64,000 nucleotides of DNA, taken from positions 372,001-436,000 of the forward strand of contig NZ_JAAKXY010000002.1 in the NCBI RefSeq assembly GCF_011043775.1, read 5' to 3'. Below, piece by piece: positions 14,568 to 20,647 of the stretch. The position numbers and the translations under genes are program-made. The stretch is from Natronolimnobius sp. AArcel1 (GTDB lineage Archaea > Halobacteriota > Halobacteria > Halobacteriales > Natrialbaceae). Numbering within the stretch: position 1 is the first letter of the stretch; each line of letters starts with the position of its first letter. Below the pieces are notes generated by a model. The model had not been told where the DNA came from, did no database searches, and saw only the letters and a program-made list of their open reading frames with translations.

Positions 14568-15032
14568 ATGACGAAGTACGAACTCGACGCGATTGATCGG
14601 GAGATTCTCTATGCGCTTCAAGCGGAAGCGCGCAATCTCTCCTCGAGCGAGATCGCGCAACGAACCGACGCCTCCTCGAGTACGGTCCGAAAGCGAATCC
14701 AGCGCCTCGAGTCGGAGGGGATCATCAAACGCTACAGCGCGGAGATCGATTACACGATGTCCGGCCATCCGATCCGGATGTTGCTGTTCTGTACGGCACC
14801 GATTCCGGAGCGTGGCGAGTATCGTGAGCAGATCCTGGACATCCCACGGGTCATCTCGGTGCAAGAACTCGTCACCGGTGAGGAGAACCTGCTCGTGACG
14901 GCCGTTGGTGAGACAGACAGGGATATTACGCCCGTCGCACAGGAACTCTCGGACCTGGGGCTGACGATCACTGACGAAGTGCTCGTTCGGAGCCACGAAA
15001 CAACGACGTTCGACGAGTTTTCCAGCAAGTGA
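14568..15032 (+). CDS. Lrp/AsnC family transcription regulator
   Basis: 154 residues. The N-terminal HTH is LDAIDREILYALQAEARNLS, SSSEIAQRTDASSSTVRKRI, then QRLESEGIIKRYSAEIDYTM; the C-terminal part is a RAM/ligand-like domain (VISVQELVTGEENLLVTAVG). Lrp proteins form dimers and octamers and bind palindromic sites, usually responding to amino acids or other small molecules. Two identical-type palindromes lie downstream, between this gene and dabB, which makes carbon uptake a plausible target. The linkage to dabBA is positional inference. Confidence 0.9.
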   Translation: MTKYELDAIDREILYALQAEARNLSSSEIAQRTDASSSTVRKRIQRLESEGIIKRYSAEIDYTMSGHPIRMLLFCTAPIPERGEYREQILDIPRVISVQELVTGEENLLVTAVGETDRDITPVAQELSDLGLTITDEVLVRSHETTTFDEFSSK

Positions 15033-15153
15033 AGGTAGATTCGCGCCTGCGAGAACGGTTTCGATGACCCGTAATTCGCGATCGCATCTGTCCCGAGAAA
15101 ACTAGTGCTCGAGTCGCCAGTTCGTCTCAGTTTGGACGATACTATCAGTATAT

Positions 15154-15168
15154 CGAACGGATTGTTCG
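15154..15168. promoter_or_regulatory. Palindrome 1, CGAAC-N5-GTTCG
   Basis: Perfect 5-bp arms with the spacer GGATT, located in the 443-nt gap between the Lrp gene and dabB (15033-15475), which contains no credible gene. It has the same form as palindrome 2, 179 nt further on. Confidence 0.55.
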
Positions 15169-15331
15169 GGGTAACGATCCACTCGAGGCCGTCTGTCGCT
15201 GTCACAGGGTAGGCAGTACAGCTGATCGGCGGATTCGATTGCCGTATTTTCGTTCCACCCCCACTATCTCTCCCATGTGATTTTCACACATTCCTCATAT
15301 AAGGACCATAATGTTCTTTAAACACCCGATA

Positions 15332-15348
15332 TCGAACAGTTTGTTCGA
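15332..15348. promoter_or_regulatory. Palindrome 2, TCGAAC-N5-GTTCGA
   Basis: Perfect 6-bp arms with spacer AGTTT, directly upstream of the candidate dabB TATA box. This position relative to the promoter is typical for an archaeal activator, or a repressor overlapping the BRE. A further half-site GTTCAA lies at about 15373-15378. Confidence 0.6.
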
Positions 15349-15355
15349 ATAGAAG

Positions 15356-15364
15356 GATATAATA
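15356..15364 (+). promoter_or_regulatory. Candidate TATA box of dabBA
   Basis: The AT-rich GATATAATAA lies about 110 nt before the dabB ATG. It predicts transcription start near 15385-15390 and a leader of some 90 nt, unusual among the otherwise leaderless genes here. An alternative TATA (CATATAAGG) lies near 15296. Confidence 0.4.
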
Positions 15365-15475
15365 ACCACTTTGTTCAACATGGTAGTATCGAAGATCAGT
15401 CTGTGCCCTTGTTTCCCGGCAACAGGCCGTCTATCTGGGAAACGCGCCTTACTGGTTGGAGGAGACGCCAAGGAA

Positions 15476-16972
15476 ATGACCACGGAACAAGACTCACGCG
15501 CATCTGATGCCGTACAACTCGCCGAAACGACGACGCAGCCGTCTTCGGTCGTCGCGCGAACGTCGACCTGGTCAGTCTGGGCACTCTTTTGTCTCAGCGT
15601 CGGGGCACTTGCACTCACAGCGCTGCGAGGGACCCAGTGGATCGTTTCGGACATCCTGATCGTCGACGGCTTGACCGCAGTCATGTGGGTCGTCGTCACC
15701 TTCTTCAGCGGTATCGTCCACAGCTACTCGCGGCGCTACATGGCGGGCGACCGTGATATCGAGCGGTTTTACGCCCGTGTGTTCGGGTTCACGCTCGTCG
15801 TGATGACGATGACGGCGGCCAACCACGTCGCATTGCTCGCGGCAGCGTGGCTCGCGATGGGACTGTTGATGGCCGGCCTCATCGGCCACGTTCGTGACTG
15901 GGAACAGGCACAGGCCGCGGCCACGCTGGCTCGTCGCTACTTCCTCGCCAGCAGCGCGCTGCTTGCCGGCAGTTTGAGCCTGTTAGCCTGGGCGACTGGA
16001 ACCACCTCGATCAGCGGAATTCTCGCGCAGGCAGACGAGATTTCGACGTCCGTTGCGCTCGTCGCCGTCAGCGCTATTGTCCTTGCGGCGCTGATCCAAT
16101 CCGCGCTGTTTCCCTTCCACAACTGGCTGCTTTCCTCGATGACAGCCCCAACGCCGGCCTCCGCGCTGATGCACGCCGGGTTTGTCAACGCCGGTGGCAT
16201 CCTGCTGACCCGATTCGCGCCGGTCGTCACCCTCGAGGTCGCCGTCATGTCTGCGGTGGTCCTCATTGGTGCGGTCAGTGCGCTGCTGGGTCAGGCGATG
16301 GGACTCGTCCAACCCAACGTCAAGCGCAAACTCGGCAGTTCGACCATCGCCCAGATGGGCTTTATGATCATGCAGTGTGGCCTCGGCTTTTTCGCCGCCG
16401 CAATCGCCCACCTCATCCTTCACGGCTTCTACAAGGCCTATCTCTTTCTCTCCGCCGGCGCTTCAGTCGAGCAGACCGTTCCCAAAGACGCCAAATCGAC
16501 CGACACCGGCGTCTCGAGCGTCGCCATCGGCGCCGTCACGGCTGTCGGTGCCGGAGTGGTGTTTGCTACACTCACCGGCAAATCGCTGCTGGCGTTCGAT
16601 AGCGGGACGATCCTCGTCCTCGTCGTGGTTCTGACGACACTGACTGCCACGCGAGATATCCTCCGGCGGGCCGTCCTGCCGGCGACGCTCAGAGTCGCCG
16701 CCGTGCCGATCGTCGTGCTGAGCGCGATCACTGGTTACGCCCTGCTGTACAACGCGATCTCCACGGCCCTTTCGGGCGTGCCGATGACCGACGCGCCAAC
16801 GGAGTTAACGGCCGCACACTTCCTTGCGCTCGCCCTGTTCGTCGTTGCTTACCTGGCGACGGAATTCGGTTGGCACCGCTCGAGCACCCGCCTTTACGTC
16901 TTCCTGTTGAATCGCTCTCAACCCGATTCGTCGACCGTCCTCACCACCAAAGCGGAGTACAACGATGTCTAG
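15476..16972 (+). CDS. dabB: DabB, membrane subunit of the inorganic carbon uptake complex
   Basis: 498 residues from ATG 15476, preceded by GGAGG; the frame's upstream extension has no membrane character. The protein is a chain of about 13-14 hydrophobic helices related to NuoL/MrpA (proton-conducting). It contains GIVHSYSRRYMAGDRDIERF, ALIQSALFPFHNWLLSSMTA, PTPASALMHAGFVNAGGILL and KRKLGSSTIAQMGFMIMQCG. Paired with a DabA-type protein this family forms the DAB bicarbonate/CO2 accumulation complex rather than Complex I. Its stop overlaps the dabA start by 8 nt, so the two are translationally coupled. Confidence 0.92.
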   Translation: MTTEQDSRASDAVQLAETTTQPSSVVARTSTWSVWALFCLSVGALALTALRGTQWIVSDILIVDGLTAVMWVVVTFFSGIVHSYSRRYMAGDRDIERFYARVFGFTLVVMTMTAANHVALLAAAWLAMGLLMAGLIGHVRDWEQAQAAATLARRYFLASSALLAGSLSLLAWATGTTSISGILAQADEISTSVALVAVSAIVLAALIQSALFPFHNWLLSSMTAPTPASALMHAGFVNAGGILLTRFAPVVTLEVAVMSAVVLIGAVSALLGQAMGLVQPNVKRKLGSSTIAQMGFMIMQCGLGFFAAAIAHLILHGFYKAYLFLSAGASVEQTVPKDAKSTDTGVSSVAIGAVTAVGAGVVFATLTGKSLLAFDSGTILVLVVVLTTLTATRDILRRAVLPATLRVAAVPIVVLSAITGYALLYNAISTALSGVPMTDAPTELTAAHFLALALFVVAYLATEFGWHRSSTRLYVFLLNRSQPDSSTVLTTKAEYNDV

Positions 16973-19472
16973 TCACCAATCCCAGACTCACCTCGAGTCC
17001 GAGTCACAATCCGCACAGCAACTGGCCGAGCAATCACAGACACCGCAACTCGGTGACCACATCTCCGAGAACATTGACCGCGCGGCCGAGCGAATCGGCT
17101 CCGTCTGGCCGATCCACTCGTTCGTCACGGCCAACCCGCTCTCAGGATTCGAAGACCAACCATTTCACGAGGCCGTCGCCGAGGCCCAACGGCTGTTCGG
17201 CGGCCGCGGCTATCCAAGACCCTCTGTCTTCCAGCAAGCCTGGGAGACCGGACAGATCGATCCCGAGATTCTGGCCAACGAACTCGAGTCACGTGGTATC
17301 GACCGCAAGCCAGAGACGCTGCTCGACGAACTGGCCGACGCTGAAGCAGCACACGCGGCGGACGCCGACATCGATCCCGCAACCGAAACTGTCGATTGCG
17401 TACTCTCGAAGTGGCTCGCCGCGTTCGTCGACAAAGGGAAGGCCGCGTGGCCGATGCCTGACCGCGACGAGGGGTTTTACGCAGCCTGGCGTGCGGTTGC
17501 TCCCGTCGATAGCGACGTGCCCTGCAGTGATTCCGACGCGCTTCCCGAAACCGCGCCCGAGGCGCTCGAGGACGCCCTCAGCGGTTCCCCGGAAAGCCGC
17601 TGGGTTGATATCGTTGAACACCACCTCGCCGCGTTGCCGGGCTGGACCGGACTCATCAAGCAACGCGCTGATGACGACGCTGATCCCTGGCAGACCGAGT
17701 ATGCGATTACTCTACGCGAGTACCTTGCAGTGCGCCTGACGCTCGTTGAGTTGCTGGACGCGCCCCTCGAGCCCGATACCACGTCCAGTTCGGCGGACGG
17801 AACAGCGCTCGAGACGGAACCGATCGCAGAAATCTGGCTGACTGCCTGGGAGCGCAGCTACCGCGAGCGCCTGCTCTCGGATATCGATACGTCGGTCACT
17901 AATCCCTCACAGGTCAACAATAACGCGCGGCCGGCCGCCCAACTCGTGTTCTGTATCGACACCCGCTCGGAGATTATTCGCCGCCACCTCGAGGAGCAGG
18001 GACACTACGAGACACACGGCTATGCGGGCTTTTTCGGCGTTCCGATGCGCTACCAGGGCTACGACTCGGCCACCGAAACCGACGCGTGTCCGCCCATCGT
18101 CGATGCCCAACACCGCATCGTCGACCGGCCTGCCGAAACGGACGACACAGCTATCGCCTCTCACGAACGCTGGACCGACCTGACGACCGCAACCCGGAAA
18201 CACTTCAAGCGGCTCAAGACTGACGTCGTCGCTGCCTTCCCGTTCGTTGAGGGTGCCGGCGGCGCGTACGGCTCAGCGATGACCACGCGAACCCTGTTCC
18301 CCTCAACGGTCACGAAACTCCGCCGCGCCGTCGACGAACGCATCCCGAGTTCCGGCGAGTTCTGTTCGCCGACGCTCGAGGCCCACGAACACGACGACCA
18401 CACGCACGCGGATCACGCCCTCCCGCAGGGGATGACCTTCGAGGAGAAAGTCTCCGCCGCCGAGACCGCCTTCGACCTCATGGGCTGGACAGACTTCGCC
18501 CGTCTGGTCGTCTTTACGGGCCATGCGAGTCATACGACGAACAACCCGTTCGACTCGAGTCTCGACTGTGGCGCCTGTGCTGGCAACGCTGGTGGCCCGA
18601 ACGCTCGCGTGCTCGCGACAATTTGCAACGACGAGAACGTCAAAGCCGAACTGCGCGAGCGCGGCTTCCACATTCCTGAAGACACCGTCTTCCTCGCGGG
18701 CGAACACAATACGACGACCGACGAAATTACCCTGTTCGACGGTGACGTGCCCGAGAGCCACCAGGAAGACCTCGAGCAACTCTACGCCGATCTCGAGCGT
18801 GCTCGTGCTGGTGCGGCGGCCGAACGGCTCGAATCGATGACTGACGCCGATGCCGACGAAATCGACCCTGAGGCAGCTGTCGAGGAAGTCGAGCGCAAGG
18901 CAGTCGACTGGGCCGAAACGCGTCCCGAGTGGGGACTGGCCGGCAACGCCTCGTTTGTCATCGGCCCGCGCGAACTCACCGAGGACGAGAACCTGGATGG
19001 CCGCGCGTTCCTCCACTCCTACGACTGGACGACCGATCCCGAGGGCGATGCGCTCGAGGCCATTCTGACGGGACCGCTCGTGGTCACCCAGTGGATCAAC
19101 AGCCAGTACTACTTCGCGACCGTCGACAACGGCGTCTACGGGAGCGGCTCGAAGGTCACACAGAACCCAGTCGGCAACGTCGGCGTCGTGCAAGGCAACG
19201 GCGGTGACCTGATGACTGGCCTGCCGCTGCAGTCGCTCAAGGTCGATGACGACCAGCCGTACCATCAGCCGCTGCGTCTCTCGACGGTAATCCACGCACC
19301 GCTCGAGCGCGTGACCGACATTCTCAACCGTCACGACGAGGTCACGCAGTTGCTCGACAACGATTGGATTGGCGGGCTAACGGTTATCGATCCCGAGCAA
19401 GACAATCAAGCGTTCCATTATCAGGACGGCCTCGAGTGGGAACCTGAGATTGGACCGGCGCCAGCGCACTGA
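16965..19472 (+). CDS. dabA: DabA, zinc-dependent subunit of the inorganic carbon uptake complex
   Basis: 835 residues, the former UPF0753/DUF2309 family. DabA looks like a distant beta-carbonic anhydrase and, with DabB, couples ion flux to one-way CO2 hydration to bicarbonate. The expected zinc and catalytic residues are present: Cys330 and Asp332 in FCIDTRSEIIRRHLEEQGHY, His520 in VVFTGHASHTTNNPFDSSLD and Cys535 in DCGACAGNAGGPNARVLATI. A conserved N-terminal segment (WPIHSFVTANPLSGFEDQPF) precedes them. An acidic His-rich loop (EAHEHDDHTHADHA, about 472-485) is a haloarchaeal addition that may bind metal. Confidence 0.93.
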   Translation: MSSHQSQTHLESESQSAQQLAEQSQTPQLGDHISENIDRAAERIGSVWPIHSFVTANPLSGFEDQPFHEAVAEAQRLFGGRGYPRPSVFQQAWETGQIDPEILANELESRGIDRKPETLLDELADAEAAHAADADIDPATETVDCVLSKWLAAFVDKGKAAWPMPDRDEGFYAAWRAVAPVDSDVPCSDSDALPETAPEALEDALSGSPESRWVDIVEHHLAALPGWTGLIKQRADDDADPWQTEYAITLREYLAVRLTLVELLDAPLEPDTTSSSADGTALETEPIAEIWLTAWERSYRERLLSDIDTSVTNPSQVNNNARPAAQLVFCIDTRSEIIRRHLEEQGHYETHGYAGFFGVPMRYQGYDSATETDACPPIVDAQHRIVDRPAETDDTAIASHERWTDLTTATRKHFKRLKTDVVAAFPFVEGAGGAYGSAMTTRTLFPSTVTKLRRAVDERIPSSGEFCSPTLEAHEHDDHTHADHALPQGMTFEEKVSAAETAFDLMGWTDFARLVVFTGHASHTTNNPFDSSLDCGACAGNAGGPNARVLATICNDENVKAELRERGFHIPEDTVFLAGEHNTTTDEITLFDGDVPESHQEDLEQLYADLERARAGAAAERLESMTDADADEIDPEAAVEEVERKAVDWAETRPEWGLAGNASFVIGPRELTEDENLDGRAFLHSYDWTTDPEGDALEAILTGPLVVTQWINSQYYFATVDNGVYGSGSKVTQNPVGNVGVVQGNGGDLMTGLPLQSLKVDDDQPYHQPLRLSTVIHAPLERVTDILNRHDEVTQLLDNDWIGGLTVIDPEQDNQAFHYQDGLEWEPEIGPAPAH

Positions 19473-19769: not shown

Positions 19770-20519
19770 TCAGTACAGTAGACTCTGGGTTATCGGCTCG
19801 TACTCCTCGGGAAGTTGCTCAGCAATTGCGTCCGGCTCCATCGTGCCGTTGACGTTGACCAGATATGCACAGCCGTGGTCATCCCCGTAGACGCCTTGAA
19901 AGTCATAGACAAAGCCGTAGATGTCGATGCCGTCCGGGACGTTCGGGGAGTTACGGAGGAACTCCGCCTGATGGTCAACGTTGTATTCGACGAGTTGGTT
20001 GATCACTAAATCGTCGTCCGCGTTAGCGTCGATCAGGTCGCTCTCGAGGGCGTCCTCAACGACGGGTACAAGCATGCGGATCCACTTGTCGACGCCCTGG
20101 GGCCCGGGTAGTGAGTCGCCCGTTGCGACGCGATAGGCTGCAGTGATGGCTCCACAGCCGGTGTGGCCGACGACAGCCGCGACCTCGGTGTCCGTGTGGT
20201 GGATCGGGTAGAGCAACCCGCCGTCGACGATCCGCTCGCCGTCGTCTTCGTCCCAGACCTGATTGCCGATGTTGCTCGGTGTAAAGACCTGTCCTGCATG
20301 ATCGACGCCCCACATGTCCTCCTGTGGCACCCGCGAGTCCGAGCAGGAGATGGCGACGATGTCTGGGTGCTGTTCAACCTGCACGTCCGCGAAGTAGTCT
20401 TCCGGCAGAGAGTTGACGTGGTGGCGATTGCCCACGAGCAGTTCCGCAAGGATTCCGTACTCGCTGTCGGCGTCGGAATCGCGGCCGCCTCTACCGCTCG
20501 GTTCGCTATCGGTTCCCAT
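19770..20519 (-). CDS. Beta-class carbonic anhydrase
   Basis: 249 residues from the ATG at 20517-20519; the frame extends upstream but the extra residues are Arg-rich and not family-like. Zinc and catalytic residues: Cys59 and Asp61-x-Arg63 in SCSDSRVP, His119 and Cys122 in VVGHTGCGAITAAYR. The enzyme interconverts CO2 and bicarbonate in the cytoplasm. Together with dabBA, 300 nt away on the other strand, it forms an inorganic carbon island. In a heterotroph this would supply bicarbonate for carboxylations. It is followed by a small membrane protein gene. Confidence 0.92.
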   Translation of the reverse strand: MGTDSEPSGRGGRDSDADSEYGILAELLVGNRHHVNSLPEDYFADVQVEQHPDIVAISCSDSRVPQEDMWGVDHAGQVFTPSNIGNQVWDEDDGERIVDGGLLYPIHHTDTEVAAVVGHTGCGAITAAYRVATGDSLPGPQGVDKWIRMLVPVVEDALESDLIDANADDDLVINQLVEYNVDHQAEFLRNSPNVPDGIDIYGFVYDFQGVYGDDHGCAYLVNVNGTMEPDAIAEQLPEEYEPITQSLLY

Positions 20520-20647
20520 AGGTACCCTATCTCGGCGGCGGTGAAAAGCTTCTCCGGCGATCCCGGCTCGAGTGCAAGCCAGCTGTGACCTGCCAGCTAC
20601 TTTCCGCAATCCTGTGTCTCTTCACGCAAGCTCTGTTACAGACGCAC

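Follow-up and report, generated by a model that had tools for sequence, protein, structure and literature searches.

Archaeal regulators of the Lrp family bind as dimers to imperfect inverted repeats of 13 to 17 bp, spaced two or three turns of the helix apart, and the sites through which they activate transcription lie a few base pairs upstream of the BRE (PMC2995911). The operator of Ss-LrpB from Sulfolobus solfataricus comprises three 15-bp palindromic sites at the regulator's own gene, which three dimers occupy cooperatively while wrapping the DNA (PMC4046817; PMC2995911). Haloferax volcanii HVO_2410/2411 have been assigned as DAB genes by homology with Halothiobacillus (PMC8305020). We found no Lrp-type control of the Halothiobacillus neapolitanus DAB complexes described in the literature searched, and the earlier note's statement that no described local regulator of archaeal DAB is known agrees with our search of the open-licence literature, which returned none.

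Here we analyze the DNA upstream of dabB in Natronolimnobius sp. AArcel1, within a window of 64,000 nucleotides (the whole stretch of DNA that was analyzed; positions refer to it). The putative operator resembles that of Ss-LrpB in having three sites, those at dabB being predicted from sequence; it differs in that its target is the adjacent dab operon, with no such site seen at the lrp promoter, in that the Ss-LrpB motif TTGCAAAATTTGCAA is unrelated in sequence, and in that the last dabB site overlaps the TATA box. As at the activator sites of Ptr2 from Methanocaldococcus jannaschii, a predicted Lrp-family dimer site lies a few base pairs upstream of the BRE (PMC2995911), but dabB has an added downstream site on the TATA edge and the sequence differs. 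Closer in taxonomy, Halobacterium Lrp and HFX_0246 at the nasABC promoter of Haloferax mediterranei belong to the same protein family and the same order (PMC2995911; PMC8143581); unlike these global or nitrogen-linked regulators, the dab-associated Lrp appears to have a single target and falls below the cut-offs of the NCBIfam LrpA1 and Lrp equivalog models. DabA and DabB themselves are homologous to the subunits of the Halothiobacillus neapolitanus complexes. The dabB operator would work like known archaeal Lrp operators, and the protein has the helix-turn-helix (HTH) of the family; the system is unusual in how deeply it is conserved and in having what appears to be a single target.

The lrp-dabBA locus and its conservation

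An Lrp gene lies directly upstream of dabBA, as the earlier note had read from the sequence; Pfam assigns the first product to the AsnC-type HTH proteins and the next two to an antiporter-like DabB and to DabA. The genes and the gap between lrp and dabB are as follows.

14568-15032, + strand: lrp, Lrp/AsnC-type regulator of 154 aa, predicted binder of the dabB sites
15033-15475: gap between lrp and dabB
15476-16972, + strand: dabB, Pfam Proton_antipo_M/N, ATG at 15476
16965-19472, + strand: dabA, Pfam DabA (PF10070, E 8e-270)
19770-20609, - strand: beta-carbonic anhydrase gene, convergent to dabA and immediately 3' of it

DabA and the antiporter-like DabB (PF00361, E 8e-38) are encoded in one operon, with a gene overlap at 16965-16972 and a predicted function in carbon uptake. 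The N terminus of the Lrp protein carries an AsnC-type winged HTH, matched by the Pfam domains HTH_24 and HTH_AsnC-type (PF13412, E 8e-15; PF13404, E 4e-10; both above gathering scores), and no RAM domain model passed in the Pfam scan at 0.001. A low-confidence structure model (mean pLDDT 58.8), used as a fold hint only, has Lrp/FFRP structures as its best Foldseek matches (E 2e-7), and its C-terminal secondary-structure order is consistent with the beta-alpha-beta-beta-alpha-beta arrangement of a RAM domain.

Lrp and DabB occur together almost without exception. At a DabB cut-off of E 1e-144 or better (weaker matches resemble antiporter paralogues), 50 of 125 family genomes encode DabB, and an Lrp orthologue (at least 68% identity, other matches reaching at most 51%) is listed for the same 50. 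The orthologue lies upstream of dabB on the same strand in 50/50 family loci, 39/40 loci of other families, and 79/80 named loci. Comparing lists across 392 genomes of the order gives DabB in 216, the Lrp orthologue in 214, and both in 213, which leaves four discordant genomes: G134, G147, and G376 with DabB only and G133 with Lrp only. The operator described below is present in G134, where no Lrp orthologue was detected, and in G402 the DabB gene, the Lrp gene, and the operator are each present twice.

Three phased sites at the dabB TATA box

The gap had been described as holding a duplicated CGAAC-N5-GTTCG palindrome. Both copies are exact, at 15154-15168 and 15333-15347; the limits first assigned to the second, 15332-15348, take in a flanking T/A pair. 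That palindrome had also been thought to abut the TATA box, whereas TATAAT stands at 15358-15363, some 10 bp past it. The half-site reported further downstream is real, with GTTC at 15373-15376, and a third copy of the motif, GACC-ATAAT-GTTC at 15304-15316, had gone unnoticed and brings out a 30-bp phasing (15304, 15334, 15364). What is conserved is this phased set of sites spanning the dabB TATA box, made of three RAMC-N5-GTTC copies with an AT-rich middle and centers 30 bp apart.

15304-15316, + strand: site A, GACC-ATAAT-GTTC, 30 bp upstream of B
15334-15346, + strand: site B, GAAC-AGTTT-GTTC, which forms the core of the proximal palindrome and lies about 5 bp before the BRE-like GAAGGA
15352-15364, + strand: BRE/TATA of dabB, GAAGGA-TATAATA, with T[AT]TAAYA at a fixed place past B order-wide
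15364-15376, + strand: site C, AACC-ACTTT-GTTC, the earlier half-site, overlapping the 3' edge of the TATA box
15154-15168, no strand assigned: distal palindrome, CGAAC-GGATT-GTTCG, either an accessory site private to this genome or a chance occurrence

The proximal palindrome is exact, 112 to 147 bp upstream of the dabB start, in 42 of the 50 family loci; one more differs from it at a single base, and in seven loci that are more distant only its left half remains. Across 90 loci, GAAC of site B is found in 89 and GTTC of site C exactly 30 bp beyond B in 83, while GTTC of site A is exact at -30/-31 in 47. Both A and C are degenerate in their left half. Site A forms a perfect palindrome (GAAC-ATAAT-GTTC) in several species and is poorly retained in much of the main Natrialbaceae clade, and therefore the three sites are not universal. 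Aligned dabB upstream regions share as invariant blocks the palindrome, TATAATAACC, and then TGTTC (one row of the first conservation profile, L067, was mis-anchored on a match within the leader), and the 40 loci from other Halobacteriales families have the identical block order. A composite score, to which GAAC, the TATA element, and GTTC contribute when they stand at their fixed places, reached the threshold of 11 in 164 of 170 dabB upstream regions, a set in which overlap between the genome collections leaves some species represented twice; no matched window 500 bp further upstream in the same loci, and no shuffle, did so.

The motif is also nearly confined to this place. Only three exact matches to TCGAACNNNTTGTTCG occur in the 4.56-Mb genome, two of them the gap palindromes and the third at 18538-18552 within the dabA coding sequence, where it covers the codons that specify NNPF and probably arose by coincidence. 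Of 50 matches to the family motif CGAACNNWTTGTTCGNA across 125 genomes, 40 fall at dabB and 10 lie in other places; among five of these 10 that were inspected, four lie in coding sequences and one crosses a predicted gene start, and these five look like chance. Of the 392 genomes, 167 contain the operator pattern as defined for the whole order, the places compared adjoin dabB, and the reversed pattern, used as a control, gave zero matches in all listed genomes of the 392. A random scatter of the motif, which the earlier note had named as an outcome that would refute local control, was thus not found, few matches lying away from dabB. A wider regulon was rejected on the five inspected off-target matches, and the Lrp protein appears to have one target, dabBA.

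The distal palindrome does not share in this conservation. It is absent from the corresponding place in every other locus of the 50 family loci compared, and a same-genus genome lacks the DNA that surrounds it; as a conserved partner of B it was therefore rejected. The dedicated control unit proposed earlier is supported in the sense of an adjacent Lrp gene with palindromic sites, but not as a functional pair of duplicates 179 bp apart, since the conserved unit is A-B-C with its 30-bp spacing around the TATA box. In AArcel1 itself, the distal copy might still serve B as an upstream site, possibly through a loop spanning the 179 bp (about six 30-bp steps). This reading is tentative: the palindrome fits the B consensus exactly, exact matches number only three genome-wide, and other lineages have upstream palindrome copies of their own, but it is missing from the same-genus genome and from the same place elsewhere.

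Predicted control of dabBA by the adjacent Lrp protein

As 13-bp imperfect inverted repeats spaced by 30/31 bp, sites A, B, and C fit Lrp/AsnC site clusters at the sequence level. We consider it likely that the gap holds a dedicated local operator for dabBA, to which the product of the adjacent lrp gene would bind. Points against this reading are the degenerate left halves of A and C, the patchy retention of A, and the discordant genomes G133 and G134. A further one is that many Lrp proteins autoregulate, whereas the leaderless lrp promoter of AArcel1 has no dabB-type operator. Across loci, lrp promoters conserve only GCCGAAGTYCCTTATA, in the main clade; autoregulation of lrp via the dabB motif was rejected, its promoters being without the site.

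Variation in the protein and in the sites runs in parallel. The predicted recognition helix begins at residue 37, which is serine in almost every genome whose B is perfect and aspartate in most others, and which tracks the right half of B, with GTTC accompanying serine in 44/60 cases and aspartate in 1/71. Where B is perfectly palindromic A is mostly degenerate, and loci with a perfect A tend to have a degenerate B (Fisher p 5e-13, kinship ignored), and both this trade-off and the residue 37 trend follow phylogeny. These trends suggest that this Lrp reads the A, B, and C sites. It is improbable, in our judgment, that another regulator binds the sites, or that they make up a specialized core promoter recognized by a TFB/TBP paralogue, with the Lrp gene a mere neighbor. 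The elements are indeed tightly tied to the BRE and TATA box, and Lrp binding is something we infer; against this, the co-occurrence of Lrp and DabB is almost perfect, 13-bp sites with 30-bp phasing suit the Lrp family, and site A repeats the motif outside the core promoter.

Sites A, B, and C face the same side of the helix at intervals of 30 to 31 bp (three turns). If Lrp binds them, one dimer per site would do so cooperatively, as an octamer, bending or wrapping the dabB promoter. A dimer on C, at the edge of the TATA box, should prevent initiation by excluding TBP/TFB or polymerase. Full A-B-C occupancy would most likely repress dabBA when carbon is ample, and occupancy of B/A alone could permit or assist TBP recruitment, with CO2/bicarbonate or a carbon metabolite as the presumed cue. 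Since the row of sites and its neighboring regulator gene recur throughout the order, and almost nowhere else in these genomes, the row probably serves as a dedicated switch that turns carbon uptake on and off; we put the chance that repression is the main sign of Lrp control at about even. With B at an activating position and C over the TATA edge, conditional repression is favored and activation through A and B only is the main rival. Lrp would then be mainly an activator whose A and B dimers recruit TBP, as for Ptr2, LysM, and Ss-LrpB, site C being minor or associated with initiation. B is the best-conserved site and lies at a fixed distance a few base pairs upstream of the BRE, the position of activating archaeal Lrp sites (PMC2995911), but C, with GTTC in 83/90, is nearly as conserved, and a dimer bound there, over the TATA edge, should obstruct assembly; we regard activation as a serious possibility, though of less than even probability.

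The dabB leader and lineage-specific arrangements

Downstream of the operator, the dabB transcript is predicted to begin with a 5' leader that can close into a terminal stem.

15386-15475, + strand: predicted dabB 5' leader, start inferred from the TATA position
15394-15400 / 15451-15457, + strand: terminal stem P1, GAUCAGU / ACUGGUU, core conserved with some covariation

Six P1 pairs form in 45 to 49 of 49 aligned family leaders, two of them with double changes, and in a comparison across species three pairs next to the invariant core score above every one of 2000 shuffles, which take no account of relatedness. The leader interior is variable. Folding z-scores range from -3.3 to +0.7 (0.68, not significant, for the AArcel1 leader), and whole-leader folding energy was set aside as evidence on account of these mixed values. 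No Rfam family matched the leader at E <= 1; one spurious match fell elsewhere. We have moderate confidence in a structured P1 leader as a predicted secondary feature. Control acting mainly after transcription, through a leader that P1 encloses close upstream of the start codon, would account for the pairing of the P1 core and for the pairs that exceed the shuffles, but sits poorly with the unconserved interior, the spread of z-scores, the lack of an Rfam family, and shuffles blind to relatedness; we think it unlikely.

The sites, the Lrp, and the leader could be part of a broader and more speculative picture, to which we give a rather low probability: an order-wide, single-target, carbon-responsive Lrp switch in the Halobacteriales, in which the triple operator over the TATA box is coupled with the structured dabB leader and a divergent RAM domain senses CO2, bicarbonate, or a derived metabolite, the whole being the archaeal equivalent of the regulators that control CO2-concentrating systems in bacteria. 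The locus would provide a concrete, conserved regulator-operator pair for archaeal inorganic-carbon uptake, within reach of the genetically tractable Haloferax, and may reveal the signal by which heterotrophic haloarchaea time bicarbonate import. With more than 160 upstream regions and their regulator, it would also form a deep natural data set on the co-evolution of an archaeal Lrp and its sites.

Several loci depart from the common layout. Extra GAAC-N5-GTTC palindromes, about 220 to 310 bp upstream of site B and at lineage-specific positions, occur in Haloferax, Halosimplex, and others (L096, L122, L124, L135-L140, L149, L078, L095). The Lrp orthologue of the DabB-less genome G133 (L199, 69% identity) adjoins a universal-stress-protein-like gene and nickel/CODH-maturation-ATPase-like genes, and possibly has a different target or is a remnant. 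In some genomes (L064, L141, L147, L193), lrp and dabB are separated by a short carbonic-anhydrase-like gene, about 180 to 980 bp upstream of dabB, in which the usual CxD motif is CxM (e.g., SCSM); its product is possibly a non-catalytic relative or a sensor. In other genomes (L068, L078, L082, L105, L152, L169), an amidohydrolase-like gene on the opposite strand lies between lrp and dabB, and the operator remains at dabB.
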